DNA of 37,466 nucleotides from an uncultured Nitrosomonadales bacterium (GTDB lineage Bacteria > Pseudomonadota > Gammaproteobacteria > Burkholderiales > Gallionellaceae). The stretch's first letter is position 1, and each line of letters starts with the position of its first letter. The stretch spans positions 1 to 37,466 of the forward strand of contig CAIOKY010000079.1 of the NCBI GenBank assembly GCA_903858965.1, written 5' to 3'. Below, piece after piece: positions 27,575-37,466 of this stretch. Under the pieces are notes generated by a model. That model had not been told where the DNA came from, made no database searches, and worked only from the letters and a program-made list of their open reading frames with translations. The translations under genes were made by a program, and so were the position numbers.

Positions 27575-27778
27575 GCAGGTTGTAACTGCCAATCCCATGG
27601 CAGACCTCAAATGGAATCCCTACCGCCCGTTTTTTTGCACGGCTCAATGTGTGGCTGCACCTGATGCTTTAGCCCGATCGGGGATTTCTATTTTCAGGAG
27701 AAGGAACTTGTTGCGGTACATGCAGTCTATGAACCCGGTTTGAATACTTCAAGAAACAAACAATCTGAATCCTGATGG

Positions 27779-27811
27779 AAACGCATGCTAAAAGGCGCAT
27801 GCGTTTTTTTT
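27779..27811 (+). terminator. Rho-independent terminator / possible attenuator
   Basis: AAACGCATGC-TAAAAGGC-GCATGCGTTT, perfect 10-bp stem followed by an uninterrupted T run to 27811. Confidence 0.85.
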
Positions 27812-28764
27812 CGATAATATTGATTGGCCTTTGCATAACCGGATGTGTGAATATGTTGGCTGGCATGATGCATAACAAGGCTGTTGCAGCAACCGATAAT
27901 GCGCCAGCCGCAGTACGGGATGCTGGCGTCGGCCATGGCGTGGTGTGGTTTGCGGCCATCGTTCTGATCGCGGCGGCATGGCCTGTCTACATGGGCGCAG
28001 TCTATAAGCCCGGAACCGGATTGGGCTATTACCTTGGTTTGATCGGCGGGATAATGATGTTGCTGATGTTGCTCTATCCGGTACGCAAGCACATGCGGCT
28101 GGCACGCAACTGGGGGCCGGTGCGCTACTGGTTCATGCTGCACATGATATTCGGGATAGGCGGGCCGACATTAATCCTGTTCCATTCGACCTTCCATGTG
28201 AAATCGCTGAATGCCGGCGTTGCGCTATTTTCCATGTTGCTGGTCGCGTCCAGCGGCATCATAGGACGATTCATCTATAAGCGCATACATCACGGACTCT
28301 ATGGGCGAAGATCCAACCTGGAGGAATTACAGCAGGCCGTGGATGCAAACCAGAACAAGGTGAGCAAAGTGAATGCGGCCTTGGTGGAAACAACAGAAGT
28401 CGGCGAGAAATTGAAGCACTTTCGCGCCATGGCCTTTGCGCGGGAAGAGTCGCCTTTCATGCGTCTCTGGAATTTTATGGCGCTGGACTGGCAGCGGCGC
28501 AAACTGGCGAGCTACTGCCATAAGGAGTTACGGCAGGCCGCCGAGAATCTGGCCAAGTCGCAGGGATGGAGCAGGCAGCAACAGGAGCAGCATCTTTTGG
28601 CTGTGTCGCAGGATGTGAACGAGTACCTGGATGCTGTGCAGCAAGCTGCTCAATTTTCATCCTACGAAAGACTGTTCCGCTTGTGGCATATTCTGCATTC
28701 GCCTTTTGTATGGTTGCTCGCTATCAGTGGCATAGTCCATGTCATAGCGGTCAACATGTACTGA
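27799..28764 (+). CDS. Polytopic membrane protein, putative b-type cytochrome-like inner-membrane quinone-interacting component
   Basis: Several TM segments with conserved-looking His residues (FMLHMIFGIGGPTLILFHSTFHV; LWHILHSPFVWLLAISGIVHVIAVN), directly upstream of multiheme cytochromes. The true start is uncertain (27775, 27799 or 27853), because the terminator hairpin spans the annotated start. Confidence 0.7.
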   Translation: MRFFSIILIGLCITGCVNMLAGMMHNKAVAATDNAPAAVRDAGVGHGVVWFAAIVLIAAAWPVYMGAVYKPGTGLGYYLGLIGGIMMLLMLLYPVRKHMRLARNWGPVRYWFMLHMIFGIGGPTLILFHSTFHVKSLNAGVALFSMLLVASSGIIGRFIYKRIHHGLYGRRSNLEELQQAVDANQNKVSKVNAALVETTEVGEKLKHFRAMAFAREESPFMRLWNFMALDWQRRKLASYCHKELRQAAENLAKSQGWSRQQQEQHLLAVSQDVNEYLDAVQQAAQFSSYERLFRLWHILHSPFVWLLAISGIVHVIAVNMY

Positions 28765-28774
28765 TTGCTGCCGG

Positions 28775-30580
28775 ATGTTGCTACGCCTCACCTTCCTGAT
28801 CTTGTCCCTGTCTTTTTCCGGTATTACGCTGGGGGCGGGAGAGTCCGCGCTGATGCCGGGTGAGGTGATCGAAGGGCATGCCAAACTCGAAGAGAGTTGC
28901 ACCGAATGCCATGTCCGGTTCGACAAGGAAGCGCAGACCAAACTGTGTTCGGATTGCCACAAGGATGTGAAGGCAGATATCCAGAAGCATGAGGGATTTC
29001 ACGGCAGGCTGGAAGAAAAAGAGTGCCGTGCCTGTCATACCGAGCACCGGGGGCGCAACGCGAAGATCGCGGTGCTGGATACGAAAACATTCGACCATGC
29101 GAAGACCGACTTCCCGTTGTTGGGCGCGCACCAGAACCGGGAAAAAATAAAGTGCAAGGATTGCCACGAGACGAAGAAAAAATATCGTGAAGCGCCGTCG
29201 ACTTGTAATGCCTGTCATCGCAAGGATGACAAACACAAGGGCAGTCTGGGCACCGACTGCAAGAGCTGCCATAACGAGCGCAGCTGGAAAGAAACTAAAT
29301 TCGACCACAGTCTGGAAAAGACCCGCTTTGCGCTAAGTGGAAAGCACGTGGAGGTGAAGTGCAGTAAATGCCATGTCGACTCGACGAAATATAAGGGCGT
29401 ATCGCATGAGTGTGTGAGTTGTCATCGCAAGGACGACAAGCACAAGGGCCAATACGGCAAAAAGTGCGAGACCTGCCACACCGACAAAGACTGGAAGCAA
29501 ATCGAGTTTGATCATGATACGCAAACGAAATTCAAGTTGCTGGGCAAGCATGAATTGGCGAAATGCGTGAGTTGCCACAAGGCGCCGTTGTTTGCCAAGG
29601 AAAAGACGCCGACCACCTGTATCGCGTGTCACCGCAAAGACGATGTGCACAAGGGTGGGTTGGGCGAGAAATGCGCGACTTGCCACAACGAGGAAAAATG
29701 GAAATCCGCAAAATTCGATCATGACAAGGACACCAAATACCCTTTGTTGGGCAAGCACGTTACCACCAAGTGCGATGCCTGCCATAAACCGGAATTGAAA
29801 GTCACCGGGGAAAAGATCGCCACGGTTTGTGTCGGTTGTCACAAAAAGGATGACAAGCACAAGGACAATTTCGGAGCCAAGTGCGAGTCATGCCACAAGG
29901 AAAAAGACTGGAAGGAAATCAGCTTCGACCATGACCGCGATGCGAAATACGCCTTAAAGGGCAAGCACGAAAATGTTAAGTGTGTAGCCTGCCATACCGG
30001 CAAGCTGTATCAGCAAAAATTGGCTCAGGATTGTATTTCCTGCCACAAGAAAGACGATGTGCACAAGGAAAAGCTCGGCAAGCGCTGCGAATCCTGCCAT
30101 AACGAAAAAGATTGGAAGGACGCCAAGCTAGACCACGGACGTGCACGTTTTCCATTGCTCGGACTGCACGTCAAAGTGGAGTGCAAGAAATGTCACCAGA
30201 CACAGTTGTTCCACGATACGCCATCCGACTGCATTTCCTGCCACAAGAAGGACGATGACAAGGTTCACAAGCGCCGGTTGGGCAATAAGTGCGAGTCGTG
30301 CCACAACGCGCGGTCATGGAAGGCTTGGGATTTCGATCACGACAGCCGCACCAAATTCAAGCTCGATGGCGGACATAAAAAATTGGATTGCTACGCTTGC
30401 CATAAAAAAGAAGTCGAGGGCAGCTTCGTTGTTCCGCGTTCATGTGTCGGTTGCCACGAAGACGATGATGTACATCAAGGAAAATTCGGCCAACAATGCG
30501 AGCGCTGCCATGTCACCAGCAAATTCCGCACGCTTATTTTGGGCAACGGGCCGCAACCGCCGCTGATCCAGCTGCATTAA
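28775..30580 (+). CDS. Large multiheme c-type cytochrome, 24 CXXCH motifs, 7 tandem tri-heme modules
   Basis: Signal peptide MLLRLTFLILSLSFSGITLGA; 24 CXXCH counted; repeating ~69-aa module (e.g. FKLLGKHELAKCVSCH...TCIACHRKDDVHKGGLGEKCATCHNEEKWKSAKFDHD). Confidence 0.95.
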   Translation: MLLRLTFLILSLSFSGITLGAGESALMPGEVIEGHAKLEESCTECHVRFDKEAQTKLCSDCHKDVKADIQKHEGFHGRLEEKECRACHTEHRGRNAKIAVLDTKTFDHAKTDFPLLGAHQNREKIKCKDCHETKKKYREAPSTCNACHRKDDKHKGSLGTDCKSCHNERSWKETKFDHSLEKTRFALSGKHVEVKCSKCHVDSTKYKGVSHECVSCHRKDDKHKGQYGKKCETCHTDKDWKQIEFDHDTQTKFKLLGKHELAKCVSCHKAPLFAKEKTPTTCIACHRKDDVHKGGLGEKCATCHNEEKWKSAKFDHDKDTKYPLLGKHVTTKCDACHKPELKVTGEKIATVCVGCHKKDDKHKDNFGAKCESCHKEKDWKEISFDHDRDAKYALKGKHENVKCVACHTGKLYQQKLAQDCISCHKKDDVHKEKLGKRCESCHNEKDWKDAKLDHGRARFPLLGLHVKVECKKCHQTQLFHDTPSDCISCHKKDDDKVHKRRLGNKCESCHNARSWKAWDFDHDSRTKFKLDGGHKKLDCYACHKKEVEGSFVVPRSCVGCHEDDDVHQGKFGQQCERCHVTSKFRTLILGNGPQPPLIQLH

Positions 30581-30710
30581 TGTTGATGTTATCAGTTGGT
30601 CTTTAGCCATTGAGGATTTCTTGTCTCGCTTGCGTCGCAAGCGTTGAATGATTTTTAAGTTCAGGCAGAATGGAACCAACAAATTTCAAAGCTTGTCAGA
30701 GGGGTAGTTT

Positions 30711-31820
30711 ATGCGCGGGATTTTTATGAGGAGCGGAAAAATAATTAGCCATAATAATCTGTTTGTGGAAAACAACGGATTTCGAGTTTCAGGCTCACTG
30801 CGCTGGATCGCCGGGATGTTTATACTGCCGCTGCTGATGATGGCTGACTTTGCTTTGGCGCAGGCAGCTGATGTCGATGCTTCAAATTTCAACCATACCC
30901 AAACCGGGTTTAACCTGGTCGGTCCGCATGCTATAGCTCCGTGCGATTCTTGTCATGTTCAGGGCGTGTTCAAGGGAACCCCGCGGGATTGTGCGACCTG
31001 CCATAGTCTTGGCAACCGTATGGGGGCAACGGTAAAACCCAATACGCATATACCTACCCGCGTACCATGCGATAACTGCCACAAACCCACGACCTGGACA
31101 CCCGCGACATTCAGCCATGTGGGCGTTTCACCGGGCGCCTGCATGACTTGCCACAATGGCATGACGGCGACGGGCAAACCGAACGGACATATCATGACGA
31201 CAGCTTCATGCGACACCTGCCATCGTACCGTGGCATGGATACCCGCCGGCTTCAATCATGCTGGAGTGGTTCCGGGCACTTGCACGACTTGTCACGGGGT
31301 GACCGCGACAGGCAAACCCAGCGGGCATGTTGTTACTACTGACTCATGCGACAAATGCCACAGCACCATTGCCTGGTTGCCGGCCGGTTTTAATCACACC
31401 GGCGTGGCAGCGGGTACCTGCGCGACTTGCCACAATGGTACGACCGCGACAGGCAAACCCAGCGGGCATGTTGTCACTACAGCTTCATGCGACAGCTGTC
31501 ACACGACGACAACCTGGTTGGGCGCAACGTTCAATCACGCAGGTGTGGTGGCAGGTACCTGCGCGACTTGCCATAACGGCACGACCGCAACGGGCGTGGG
31601 TGGTTCGCCTACGACACGCTATCCTTCCTATTCGGGCCATGTGCCCACGACTTATTGGACTTCATGCGATGTTTGCCACAAGTCAACGACGACTTTCCTG
31701 AATGCCAAGGTGCACGGATCGGGTGCTGTTGTTTCAGGCAAATGCAACGTATGTCATAGCCACCATAATAACTCGACATCGTGCGACAAATGTCATTCCA
31801 CCAGTACTTGGGACAAATAA
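30711..31820 (+). CDS. Multiheme c-type cytochrome, 13 CXXCH motifs in ~47-aa di-heme repeats
   Basis: 13 CXXCH counted; repeat FNHAGVVPGTCTTCHGVTATGKPSGHVVTTDSCDKCHSTIAWLPAG; N-terminal hydrophobic export signal. Confidence 0.93.
   Translation: MRGIFMRSGKIISHNNLFVENNGFRVSGSLRWIAGMFILPLLMMADFALAQAADVDASNFNHTQTGFNLVGPHAIAPCDSCHVQGVFKGTPRDCATCHSLGNRMGATVKPNTHIPTRVPCDNCHKPTTWTPATFSHVGVSPGACMTCHNGMTATGKPNGHIMTTASCDTCHRTVAWIPAGFNHAGVVPGTCTTCHGVTATGKPSGHVVTTDSCDKCHSTIAWLPAGFNHTGVAAGTCATCHNGTTATGKPSGHVVTTASCDSCHTTTTWLGATFNHAGVVAGTCATCHNGTTATGVGGSPTTRYPSYSGHVPTTYWTSCDVCHKSTTTFLNAKVHGSGAVVSGKCNVCHSHHNNSTSCDKCHSTSTWDK
31230..31600 (+). repeat. ~141-bp tandem coding repeats in the 13-heme cytochrome gene
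   Basis: GACCGCGACAGGCAAACCCAGCGGGCATGTTGT at 31301 and 31442; GGTACCTGCGCGACTTGCCA at 31413 and 31554: both 141 bp apart. Confidence 0.85.
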
Positions 31821-31943
31821 CAGTGAAATTGGCAGAGAGGGCACGCTTGATAGCGCCTCGATAGTGATGGCATCGCTATACGCTTTGCCCATTGTGACAA
31901 TGGAAAAGGAAAGATATTGAAGGTCATTGGCAAGTTGCAGACT

Positions 31944-34052
31944 ATGCGAAATTACACACGTTCGTTTAATCTCCTGGCAGTCGCCCTGATGTTGAACGGG
32001 TTTGCCATAAAGCAAGCCCAAGCTCATGTGATCGATCGCATCGAGATCAATCATGCGGGAGATGAAGCGGAGATCCAGATCCAGTTCGACATGAAGATAC
32101 AGTATCTGCGCGAGGCTTCCCTCAACAATAACGAGATACATGTTTTCATCAAGTTGCTGGAAGCCGATCCTGATCCGAGCCTGGTTCCGGAGGCAATGGA
32201 ATCGCCGCCGTCGGAGATTGCCCCGCATTTCACGGTGAGGTTTCCCGAACTCGATTCGTCGGTAGCCATCACTTTCGACGAGAAAGTGGCCTACCGTGTC
32301 CAGCCTGGAAAGGATGGGCGCAGCATCAGTATCTTTACACCGGTGATCAAACCGAAAGCCGCTCTTCCGGCCGAAGAGACAGTGCCTGCGCTAACGGCGC
32401 GAACGCCTGAACAGGTCGAGCAGGATGCCAAACAGTTGATGGACAGCGCCCAGAATGCGCTCCAGCAGGAGCAAGTAGTCACGGCAATAGAATCGCTGAA
32501 CCGGCTGCTCAATCTTCCACCCAACCAGCAATCCCAGATTGGTCAGGAGTTGATTGGCGAGGCGCGCGAAAGGAACGGTGAGTACGACAAGGCGCGTGTC
32601 GAGTATGAGTTGTACCTGAAGCTTTATCCGGATGCCGCAGATGCCGCAAAAGTGAAAGGACGGCTGGCGGGTTTGCCCGAGGTTGGTGCCAAGCCGGTTC
32701 AGCATGTTACCCAGAAGAAATCTGTCAATGAGAAGATGATGATCTATGGCGGCATCTCCCAGAATTACTACAAGGGCATGTCGCATACGGACACCACGAC
32801 CGCGGTCAGCAATGGGGTCTCCACGGCATCGCTTACCAGCACTGATCAATCGATGCTGGTCTCGTCGCTGGATATGACCGGGCGCAAGCGTACCGAGAAC
32901 ACCGATACGCGTATCGTGGTGCGCGACGTTTACAATGCGAACTTCCTGCATGGGCAGACCAGCTATAACAGGTTGAACTCGGCCTATATCGAACAGAGTG
33001 CACGCGACCACAGCTACCTGTACCGCGTGGGCCGGCAGACGGGAACGTCGGGAGGTACACCTAGTCGTTTCGACGGTGCATTGTTGGGCTATAGCCCGAA
33101 TTCAATTTGGCGCATCAATGGTGTCGTCGGCACACCGGTGGATTTTTACGGCAGCAACACTGAAAGCAAAAACTTCGCAGGCATGAGCGTCGATCTGACC
33201 CGCTTGCCTGAACAATGGAGCGGCAGCGGATATTTTGTCGAGCAAAAGGTCGCCGGCATCGTGGATCGCCGCGCGGTCGGGATGGAAGCCCATTACTTTG
33301 ATGCGCAGCGCAATTACATGGGGTTGCTTGATTACGATACCTTGTTCAAGGCGGTCAATTACGCGACGCTCCAGGGGAACTGGATAACAAGCGCGGGCGG
33401 CAACTACAACCTGCTGTTGGATCGTCGCAAGTCGCCACCGCTGCAAATCACCAATGCGTTGCCGGGGCAGACCATGCAGTCCGTATCGGCATTATTGCAG
33501 TCCGGTGTATCTGCGGATACGCTGCGCGCCGATGCACAAACATTGACTCAAACAACCAACTTGTTTCTCGTCGGGATGACACAGCCCTATTCCGCGCATT
33601 GGCGGGTGGGTGGTGATTTCCGCATCGCCAATACTTCCGCTGCCGGTGCAGTGGGTACTGTGCCCGCTGTCCCCGCTAGCGGAAACTCATACATCTACAC
33701 GGCCCAGGCGATAGGCAACAGCTTGTTCCTGGATAATGACCTGAATGTGATCAGCGCGAGTTATGTCGATGACCCAAAATTTGCGGGACGGTCCATGTTA
33801 TTCAACCGTGTCGAGACCTTGCGACAAAATTGGCGGCTGGATATGTCGTTGCAGCTCTATGATGAGAGCGACCAGTCGGGCAGTCACCAGAGGCGGATCA
33901 CACCCAGCCTCAAATTGGGTTATCACTTGAACGACTCAATCAGCCTCGAAGGTGAGGGTGGGATCGAAAATACTCATACCTATAGCGCAACCCAGGATGA
34001 CAAGACACGGCGCAGGTATTTCTATGTCGGGTATCGCTGGGACTTTAGATAG
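31944..34052 (+). CDS. Outer-membrane beta-barrel porin with N-terminal periplasmic domain (porin-cytochrome complex type)
   Basis: Signal peptide MRNYTRSFNLLAVALMLNGFAIKQAQA; TPR-like/linker segment; amphipathic beta-strand pattern to C-terminal YFYVGYRWDFR ending in aromatic-x-Phe-Arg. ATG 31944 preferred to the TTG at 31917. Confidence 0.82.
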   Translation: MRNYTRSFNLLAVALMLNGFAIKQAQAHVIDRIEINHAGDEAEIQIQFDMKIQYLREASLNNNEIHVFIKLLEADPDPSLVPEAMESPPSEIAPHFTVRFPELDSSVAITFDEKVAYRVQPGKDGRSISIFTPVIKPKAALPAEETVPALTARTPEQVEQDAKQLMDSAQNALQQEQVVTAIESLNRLLNLPPNQQSQIGQELIGEARERNGEYDKARVEYELYLKLYPDAADAAKVKGRLAGLPEVGAKPVQHVTQKKSVNEKMMIYGGISQNYYKGMSHTDTTTAVSNGVSTASLTSTDQSMLVSSLDMTGRKRTENTDTRIVVRDVYNANFLHGQTSYNRLNSAYIEQSARDHSYLYRVGRQTGTSGGTPSRFDGALLGYSPNSIWRINGVVGTPVDFYGSNTESKNFAGMSVDLTRLPEQWSGSGYFVEQKVAGIVDRRAVGMEAHYFDAQRNYMGLLDYDTLFKAVNYATLQGNWITSAGGNYNLLLDRRKSPPLQITNALPGQTMQSVSALLQSGVSADTLRADAQTLTQTTNLFLVGMTQPYSAHWRVGGDFRIANTSAAGAVGTVPAVPASGNSYIYTAQAIGNSLFLDNDLNVISASYVDDPKFAGRSMLFNRVETLRQNWRLDMSLQLYDESDQSGSHQRRITPSLKLGYHLNDSISLEGEGGIENTHTYSATQDDKTRRRYFYVGYRWDFR

Positions 34053-34067: not shown

Positions 34068-34559
34068 TTAAGCCTTCCGGTCGTAAACCACGAAGTGATA
34101 GGGGTAGGCGTTCTTCTCATCCGGTGCGTGGCTGTCGCGACTGGTTTCCTGCCATTGCTTGTCATCGAATTCCGTGAAGTATGCATCGCCCGGTATATCG
34201 GCATCGATCTCGGTCAGGTAGATGCGGTCGGCAAGATGGATCGCTTGACGATAAAGTTCTGCGCCGCCGATCACAAAAATCTCATCTTCGTCCTTTGCGC
34301 AGGCCTCAATCGCTTTTTCCAGCGAATCCTCGATGATGCAACCTTCAAACTTTGAGCTGCGCGTGACTACTACCGAAAAGCGCCCCGGCAATGGTTTGCC
34401 GATTGACTCATAAGTCTTGCGTCCCATTATGATGTGATGCTTCATAGTGAGAATTTTGAAATTTTTCAGGTCGGCGGGCAGATGCCACGGCAGCGTGTTG
34501 TTCACGCCAATCACGCGGTTTTTCGCCATTGCGACGATCAGCGAGATGCGCGGTTTCAT
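34068..34559 (-). CDS. folA: Dihydrofolate reductase
   Basis: [60 protein letters not shown]...[14 protein letters not shown]. Start revised; overlaps the thyA stop (ATGA). Confidence 0.97.
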
Positions 34560-35350
34560 ACCGCGACCGGTGCCTTGATCGCGGGATGAGGATCGTAGCC
34601 TTCCAGCGTGAAATCCTCGAACTTGAATGCAAAGATATCCTTCACTGCCGGATTGATGCGCATCGTCGGCAGCGGGCGCGGCTCGCGCGACAGTTGCAGC
34701 GCAGTCTGTTCCACGTGGTTCGAATACAGGTGTGCATCGCCGAAGGTATGCACGAACTCGCCGGGCTGCAAGTCGCACACTTGCGCCATCATCATCGTCA
34801 GCAGTGCGTAGCTGGCGATATTGAAAGGCACGCCGAGGAAGATGTCGGCGCTGCGCTGATACAGCTGGCAGGACAATTTTCCATCCGCGACATAAAACTG
34901 GAAGAACGTATGACAGGGTGCCAGTGCCATCTGGTCGAGTTCCCCGACGTTCCACGCCGACACGATGATGCGGCGCGAATCGGGATTGCCCTTGATCTGG
35001 TCGACGGCCATTTTGATCTGGTCCACCACGCGGCCATCCACGGTCGCCCACGAGCGCCATTGCTTGCCGTACACCGGGCCGAGGTTGCCGTTCTTGTCGG
35101 CCCATTCGTCCCAGATCTTGACGCCGTTGTCCTTGAGGTACTTGATGTTGGTGTCGCCCTGCAGGAACCACAGCAGTTCGTGCACGATGGATTTCATATG
35201 GCATTTCTTGGTGGTGACTAGCGGGAAACCTTCCTGCAGGTTAAAGCGCATCTGGTAGCCGAACACGCTGGTCGTGCCGGTGCCGGTGCGGTCGGTTTTT
35301 TTCGTGCCGTGGGTTAGCACATGCTGCATCAGGTCCAAATATTGGCGCAT
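34556..35350 (-). CDS. thyA: Thymidylate synthase
   Basis: [72 protein letters not shown]...[43 protein letters not shown] 35350 preferred to 35386. Confidence 0.98.
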
Positions 35351-35410
35351 AATTCCTAGCGTTGAATGCCCGTATAATCGTGGCATTGTTGAATGACTTT
35401 CGAGGACGTA

Positions 35411-36850
35411 ATGCTAGCACAACTGACCGCTTCTACTTCACTGCCCAAGACCCTGAAAGCAGCCCACCTGCTGGTGCTATTGCCCAAGGGAAAATCATTG
35501 CCCAAGGATGTGCCGCATCGCGAATTGCTGACCGCGGTGCTCAAGCGCCGCGCCATCAAGGCGGAGGAATTTGCCGCGCCCGTTGCGGCGAACCATACCG
35601 ATGGCAGCCTGATCGTTTGGGCAGCGCTGGACTTCAACAAGACCCATTTTGCCGTGCAGATACAAGTGCGCAAGGCCATGCAGTTGCTGCTGGACGAACA
35701 GCCGGTCGGCGTTTCCATCGTCGTGCTGGGCGATACCGCGCAGCGCACACAAGCTGCCGAAGCGGCGGTGTATGCGGCGTGGGTGAACGGCGCGCGGCTG
35801 CCATTGCACAAGAAAAAAGCCGACCAGCGCAAGCCGCTGCAAAAGATCGCGCTGTACGGTTTTGCCGACAAAAAAATATTTGATGAGTTCAAAGCACAAG
35901 CGGCGGGCAACCTGCTGTGCCGCACGCTGACCGTGCTGCCGCCCAACGAACTCACGCCCGGCATGTACCGCAAGCGCGTCAAGGAATTGGCCAAGGCGCA
36001 GGGCTGGAAGCATGAGGAGTTCGACATGAAGGCGTTGCGCAAGATGGGTGCGGGCGCGTTCGTTGCAGTTGCGCAGGGCAGCCATGAAGAGGATGCCGCG
36101 ATCGTGCATCTGCGTTATCGCCATACCAAGGCCAAGCAAATCGTTGCATTGGTCGGCAAGGGCATCTGCTTCGACACCGGCGGACACAACCTCAAGCCCG
36201 CGCGCTACATGCACGGCATGCACGAGGATATGAACGGCTCGGCGGTCGCGCTCGGCATTCTGCTCGCCGCCACGCAGCAAAAACTGCCGGTCAACATCGA
36301 CTGCTGGCTGGCCATCGCGCAAAACCATATCGGCCCGAAAGCCTACAAGCAGAACGATATCGTCAAGGCGCTCAACGGTACGACCATCGAGATTATGCAC
36401 ACCGATGCCGAAGGCCGCATGGTGCTGGCCGACACGCTCACGCTCGCCTCGCGCGCCAAGCCCAACCTGCTGATCGACTTCGCCACGCTTACCGGCAGCA
36501 TGGCCGTGGCGCTGGGCGCGCGCTACAGCGGCGTGTTGGGCAACTGCGACGAGCTGTTACAAAAAGCCGTGCAAGCTGGACAGCAAAGCGGCGAGCGCTT
36601 GTGCGTCTTTCCGATGGATGAAGATTACGAGCCCGCGCTGGATTCCAAGGTCGCCGACATCAAGCAATGCACGCTGGATGGCGAAGCCGACCACATCCTC
36701 GCGGCGCGCTTCCTGAAGCGCTTTCTGGAGCACGACGTACCGTGGCTACATGTGGACTTGTCCTCCAGCCGCTGTGAAGGCGGGCTGGGCAGCGTGGCGA
36801 GCGACGTGACCGGCTTCGGCGTGGGCTGGGGATTGCGCATGTTGAAATGA
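35411..36850 (+). CDS. M17 leucyl aminopeptidase family protein
   Basis: [35 protein letters not shown]...[22 protein letters not shown]...[11 protein letters not shown]. Confidence 0.92.
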
Positions 36851-36905
36851 TGCCGTCCTGAAGGTATAGAATACTGGCGTATCAAACGACAGAAAGGAGT
36901 TTGCG

Positions 36906-37355
36906 ATGAAAAAGATTATTGCTCATGTACTCTGGACCACATTGGTATTACTGGCGGTGGCGATGCCTGCCTACTCGGCGCTGAATATTGGCGTCACAGC
37001 ACCAACCTTCGTGACACAGGCTTCGATGGGCGGCAAGGTATTCACTTACTCGCTCGCCGACGCGCTGAAGAAAGGGCCGGTCGTGCTGTATTTTTATCCG
37101 GCAGCATTCACGCCGGGCTGCACGATAGAGGCGCACGATTTTGCCGACGCGATCGAAAAGTATCAGGCACTGGGCGCGACCGTGATCGGCGTGTCGCGTG
37201 ACGATATCGAGAAGCTCAACCGGTTTTCGGTCAGCGAATGTCGCAGCAAGTTCCCGGTGGCGGCGGACCCCGACCAGAGCATCATGAAATCCTACGATGC
37301 GATCCTTGCGGTCAAGCCGGAATACGCCAACCGCACATCTTATGGGCACCTCTAA
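36906..37355 (+). pseudogene. Peroxiredoxin (AhpC/TSA, BCP-like, exported), 3' end disrupted
   Basis: Signal peptide MKKIIAHVLWTTLVLLAVAMPAYSA; VVLYFYPAAFTPGCTIEAHDFADAIEKYQALGATVIGVSRDDIEKLNRFS; family sequence lost after VKPEYANRTSY, where IS-end-like sequence begins. Confidence 0.8.
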
Positions 37356-37466
37356 AAATTGCTTACGAATTCACCTTTTTGTCAGATGGAGGATGTTGGA
37401 TGGATTCGCAGAGGCTGTAAATGTTGCATCTGCCTTACGTAGAAAGCTGGGTGCCACGTTCCATTG
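37344..37466. mobile_element. Probable insertion sequence left end (IS5-like terminus suspected), truncated by window edge
   Basis: GGGCACCTCTAAAAATTGC begins exactly where the peroxiredoxin reading frame is lost; resembles an IS terminal inverted repeat. Transposase not visible. Confidence 0.55.

Follow-up and report, generated by a model that had tools for sequence, protein, structure and literature searches.

A probable PCC3 porin-cytochrome conduit in a Gallionella-type genome, and the predicted triheme modules of its periplasmic cytochrome

We analysed a stretch of 37,466 nucleotides (the window), which is contig 79 of a Gallionella-type genome (2.22 Mb, 95% complete), and found four adjacent genes that very probably encode a PCC3 porin-cytochrome conduit. 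Such conduits have already been described and the locus is one further member of the group. Judged from the heme motifs of its homologues, the periplasmic cytochrome MHC1 is a concatemer of bis-His triheme modules of about 68 residues, and the same rule appears to hold across bacteria. We propose, with about as much to be said against the idea as for it, that the PCC3 MHC1 is a modular ruler, which changes by the gain or loss of entire bis-His triheme modules, with eight preferred, so that its length stays matched to the periplasmic width, and that this wire and its di-heme b protein form a portable inner half that can be plugged into PCC3 or, in Rhodocyclales, Uet-type outer halves. We did not find the triheme rule stated in the literature that we searched, though Hoover et al. 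give the numbers 21, 24 and 27.

The four open reading frames are intact and co-directional, lie between positions 27775 and 34052 (Table 1), where a sequence-only reading of the window had placed them, and follow the order inner-membrane protein (IMP), MHC1, MHC2 and porin. They are separated by gaps of 10, 130 and 96 bp, none of which contains a terminator-like site on the + strand, and their co-transcription is likely. The same reading had counted 24 CXXCH motifs in one cytochrome and 13 in the other, and exactly these numbers were recovered in MHC1 and MHC2, respectively. Since no other frame of the window has more than one such motif, a chance origin of the arrays is excluded. All four proteins are 77-89% identical to those of the nearest relative.

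Table 1. Positions in the window of the four genes and of their predicted domains and motifs.
Feature	Position	Strand	Remarks
IMP (PCC3 IMP)	27775..28764	+	329 aa as called; predicted di-heme b quinone-reactive subunit
IMP TM3 motif W119-X3-H123-X13-H137	28129..28185	+	predicted heme b ligands, one per heme
IMP TM4 motif S160-G161-X2-G164 (SGXXG)	28252..28266	+	S160, G161, G164 invariant
IMP TM5 motif W304-X3-H308-X13-H322	28684..28740	+	W304, H308, H322 invariant
MHC1, exported periplasmic 24-heme cytochrome	28775..30580	+	601 aa; 25 residues per heme
MHC1 heme array, eight triheme modules of ~68 aa	28898..30511	+	three CXXCH and three more conserved His in each
MHC2, exported 13-heme cytochrome	30711..31820	+	predicted extracellular; no lipobox
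Outer-membrane porin	31917..34052	+	711 aa; TTG start
Porin N-terminal periplasmic beta domain, residues 39-142	32031..32342	+	AlphaFold secondary structure
Porin periplasmic TPR helices, residues 164-251	32406..32669	+	CpoB/BamD-like by sequence
Porin 22-strand beta barrel, residues 274-710	32736..34046	+	helical insert 511-542

The PCC3 type was defined by He et al. 2017 (PMC5566968) by an IMP of about 300 aa with five transmembrane (TM) helices, two WX3HX13H motifs (in TM3 and TM5) and an SGXXG motif (in TM4), together with an adjacent large periplasmic and a large extracellular MHC and an outer-membrane porin. The locus has the IMP motifs, the gene content and order, the low number of residues per heme and the homology to a named cluster that are hallmarks of this type, in agreement with the resemblance to PCC3 that the sequence-only reading had noted. 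The named cluster is that of Uliginosibacterium gangwonense, listed as a PCC3 bearer by the same authors (PMC5566968): the locus of strain DSM 18521 (L163) has all four genes, arranged as in the window, with a 24-heme MHC1, its IMP being 42% identical and its porin about 33% over the alignment. MHC1 and MHC2 are also homologous to the cytochrome pair in genomes of the same genus. Of the roughly 73 genomes available for this genus, 21 have a close IMP, and in these an identical four-gene arrangement was seen on every contig of sufficient length.

Our homologue set consists of the 80 loci that were kept, and Sideroxydans lithotrophicus ES-1 is not among them. The clusters of He et al. (ES-1 Slit_0867-0870 and Slit_1446-1449; Leptothrix; U. 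gangwonense) resemble that of the window in the genes present and their order, in the IMP motifs and in having large exported MHCs and a large porin, and their periplasmic MHC carries 21 or 24 hemes, compared to 24 here. According to Hoover et al. 2023 (PMC10734462), the periplasmic cytochrome of Gallionellaceae PCC3 has 21, 24 or 27 hemes, and the extracellular one, in its main cluster, has 10-18; the 24 and 13 hemes of the window are therefore typical, being inside these ranges. However, 13 hemes make a small surface cytochrome when compared to the published PCC3 median of 34, and the porin has 22 predicted strands whereas up to 42 have been reported for PCC3. The two PCC3 copies of Sideroxydans sp. 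CL21, with 24 + 14 and 24 + 12 hemes (PMC12442390), are essentially of the size class of the window, whose host has a single copy.

As in MtoAB and MtrCAB, a porin is associated with cytochromes on either side, but the predicted wire is more than twice as long and has its own putative di-heme b partner in place of CymA. An Mto/Mtr reading was rejected, as the best TIGR03508 match in the genome, which is MHC2, scored 24.2 bits against a cut-off of 192.2; no decaheme MtoA or MtrA above the family cut-off was detected in the host genome by this search. PCC4 has three periplasmic MHCs and no extracellular one, whereas the locus has two MHCs, one of them of the PCC3 extracellular type. The Uet system is likewise a candidate for extracellular electron uptake with triheme cytochromes. 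It differs in its surface cytochrome (undecaheme UetJ), its NHL proteins and its trihemes, which are separate proteins while those of PCC3 are fused. No such component occurs in the window cluster, and a set of this kind lies on another contig.

An inner-membrane protein with histidines in its TM helices had been predicted, and H123/H137 and H308/H322 were indeed unchanged across 35 IMP homologues, in which the two WX3HX13H motifs and SGXXG are invariant or nearly so. The gene was confirmed but its start, called at 27775, was not. Residues 1 to about 26-30 did not align to the homologues, whose N-termini fall near residue 27-31; in a near relative (L078), the IMP starts at a position matching about residue 30, and the hydrophobic stretch (residues 11-29) encoded by the 5' end of the gene (27775-27865) is missing from all homologues. 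The alignment suggests that this ATG is too far upstream and that the real start is probably around 27853-27865, in which case the protein has the expected five TM helices. The AlphaFold model (pLDDT 80.3) placed helices at residues 54-72, 83-97, 116-137, 145-171 and at the end of 267-328. No curated family was found for IMP in Pfam or NCBIfam (the best match, Spore_III_AB with an E-value of 0.012, being a chance one), and a Foldseek search with the model gave no significant match and no solved relative. A possible relationship to the ferric-reductase or cytochrome b fold is seen in the motif and was not confirmed by Foldseek. Sequence searches of the PDB with IMP, MHC1 and MHC2 did not yield any useful match.

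MHC1 starts with a clear signal peptide, MLLRLTFLILSLSFSGITLGA, as anticipated for an exported cytochrome. From the second block onward, its CXXCH spacings recur as about 17, 18 and 33 residues, and three spacing classes with medians of 17, 18 and 33 and a narrow spread were obtained from 70 MHC1 homologues. The distal histidines of GKH and DDxH were present in 100% of the 411 inner triheme modules, while the third distal histidine (FDH) lies where two modules meet and is divided by the alignment. In this module analysis the CXXCH triples are present by construction, whereas the spacings and the distal histidines are not. The 71 complete copies contain 15 (1 copy), 16 (1), 18 (3), 21 (10), 23 (1), 24 (46) or 27 (9) hemes, so that the total is a multiple of three in all but two of them (69/71) and 24 is the commonest value. 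Along the IMP tree, the total moved from one multiple of three to another at least 14 times; were any step size allowed, the chance of 14 such changes would be about (1/3)^14. By the estimate of Edwards et al. (PMC7096707), a periplasm of about 200 Å needs about 27 hemes, which implies that 24 hemes reach about 180 Å and come near to spanning it. If the triheme rule is true, wire length would change in steps of about 22 Å, with an optimum near the width of the periplasm.

Heme totals of MHC2 in the same homologue set ranged from 9 to 59, without any multiple-of-three bias, the residue classes modulo three being even (13/16/18). All 26 cysteines of the window MHC2 lie inside CXXCH motifs. The protein starts with a hydrophobic stretch ending in ALAQA, in keeping with the export that had been proposed for it, and its start codon is uncertain.

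The AlphaFold model of the porin, obtained with 29 alignment rows, has 22 strands, a mean pLDDT of 84.5 and a pTM of 0.59. Foldseek matched it to outer-membrane barrels of the PDB (FimD, PorB and FecA, with E-values down to 3e-9), so that the large barrel of the sequence-only reading was borne out, and also to the TPR-bearing BcsC; searching the PDB with the porin sequence returned TPR proteins only. The protein has no cysteine. Its N-terminal beta and TPR domains would lie in the periplasm, where they probably keep the wire in register with the pore. We found no mention of the TPR domain in the main text of the two PCC3 surveys. A porin that is not a barrel, or cytochromes devoid of export signals, would have spoken against a conduit; we looked for both and saw neither.

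PCC3 relatives were found in Nitrospira, Thiobacillus and Rhodocyclales, and for Nitrospira there was no earlier report in the literature that we searched. The Nitrospira loci include L125, L131, L132, L140, L145, L150, L151 and L160, several of them on contigs of more than 80 kb. In the Nitrospirota clade (15 rows, support 98), IMP and MHC1 are divergent from MHC2 and the porin wherever both pairs are seen. Three Gallionella pairs of MHC2 and porin (L064, L065, L066) are without IMP and MHC1 on the stretch examined, and lone PCC3-type porins of Gallionella (L061, L062, L094) have neither IMP nor long wire there. Six Rhodocyclales-type loci (L139, L143, L148, L155, L161, L172) form one clade (support 99), in which IMP and an MHC1 of 18 or 21 hemes (cut off in L172) are divergent from a Uet-like set. 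This conserved outer set comprises two NHL proteins, an 11-heme protein with doubled CXXCH (in L139 it falls past the end of the locus), a 4-heme protein and one of about 670 aa without any Pfam family. Its 11-heme and NHL members have homologues in the Uet-like cluster of the window host. Because the halves are found separately, and because of the Uet-like pairing in Rhodocyclales, the PCC3 inner half (IMP and MHC1) looks exchangeable between outer halves. No earlier description of the Rhodocyclales hybrid of PCC3 inner and Uet outer halves was found. The shorter wire of these hybrids belongs to a single clade and counts as one event, not as a correlation. Three further records are probably mis-binned or mis-named, as suggested by the grouping of their IMPs: L130 (Wallbacteria) inside Gallionella, L119 (Rhizobium) inside Thiobacillus, and L146 (Klebsiella pneumoniae) with a betaproteobacterial row.

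The closest named relatives of the host, judged by the IMP protein, are Gallionella MAGs. Its genome contains two candidate Cyc2 homologues (E-values of 2e-18 and 6e-17, the query being a consensus peptide); these Cyc2-type fused cytochrome-porin candidates were matched by their heme-region peptide and lie on contigs 105 (L188) and 114 (L189). A Uet-like cluster (L186, contig 26, 1-7272), cut off by the contig start, encodes four triheme proteins, a TPR protein, an NHL protein and a 930-aa frame with 11 hemes and doubled CXXCH. The Cyc2 homologues and this cluster are consistent with an iron oxidiser. The host also has an alternative complex III-like set (a 5-heme protein, a molybdopterin-fold protein and NrfD).

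In the mechanism that we propose, an extracellular donor would pass electrons to the surface 13-heme protein, from which they would cross the 22-strand porin and reach the 24-heme protein at its outer end. The string of eight bis-His triheme modules would be long enough to cover most of the periplasmic gap without the help of a diffusing carrier, and its inner end would exchange electrons with the quinone pool through the two-heme b cytochrome (IMP). Electron flow could also run in the reverse direction. Electron uptake is the most likely function in the host, probably from Fe(II) or an Fe(II) mineral, beside Cyc2 and the Uet-type system. PCC3 is one of the few candidate routes in which a single protein would bridge the periplasm, and an exchangeable inner half would indicate where to search for the quinone-side components of other surface electron systems.

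Published expression data bear on the donor in opposite ways. In ES-1, both PCC3 clusters were lowered on Fe(II) (PMC8788666). Proteomes of this strain included three proteins of one cluster, namely IMP, periplasmic cytochrome and porin, and the surface cytochrome of that cluster was not detected in them (PMC12016527). In CL21, the IMP of PCC3 copy 2 rose when Fe(II) oxidation was possible, and it was the only one to do so significantly (PMC12442390). The same conduit may exchange electrons with humics, Mn, other cells or electrode-like minerals rather than take them from Fe(II), an alternative which we regard as a serious one, slightly short of an even chance. Besides the ES-1 decrease, the presence of PCC3 in Nitrospira, Thiobacillus and Rhodocyclales suggests that Fe(II) may not be the common substrate, and the wide range of surface heme totals is that expected if the outside partners differ. 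The CL21 increase argues for Fe(II), as do the Cyc2 and Uet homologues of the host and the fact that iron oxidation is the trade of its family.

The large heme proteins, with 37 hemes per complex, might also function chiefly as a reservoir of electrons, both periplasmic and at the cell surface, a possible role suggested by Hoover et al. (PMC10734462). We consider a capacitor of this kind unlikely: MHC1 changes in steps of complete modules about a single length (mostly 18-27 hemes), which a length limit explains better than a capacity limit, the membrane subunit always adjoins MHC1, and a porin or outer set is linked to them where contigs are long enough. Decay or silence of the cluster in the host genome, which the IMP N-terminus unlike that of the relatives could indicate, seems highly improbable given the four intact frames, the complete heme motifs and the 77-89% identity to the nearest relative.

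On both sides of the conduit genes (1-27574 and 34068-37466), the window contains ordinary genes, none of them heme-rich. These include PGAM, RND efflux, GpsA, DnaE, MetRS, Dcd, a basic amino acid decarboxylase-like frame, thymidylate synthase/DHFR-like frames, leucyl aminopeptidase and peroxiredoxin.
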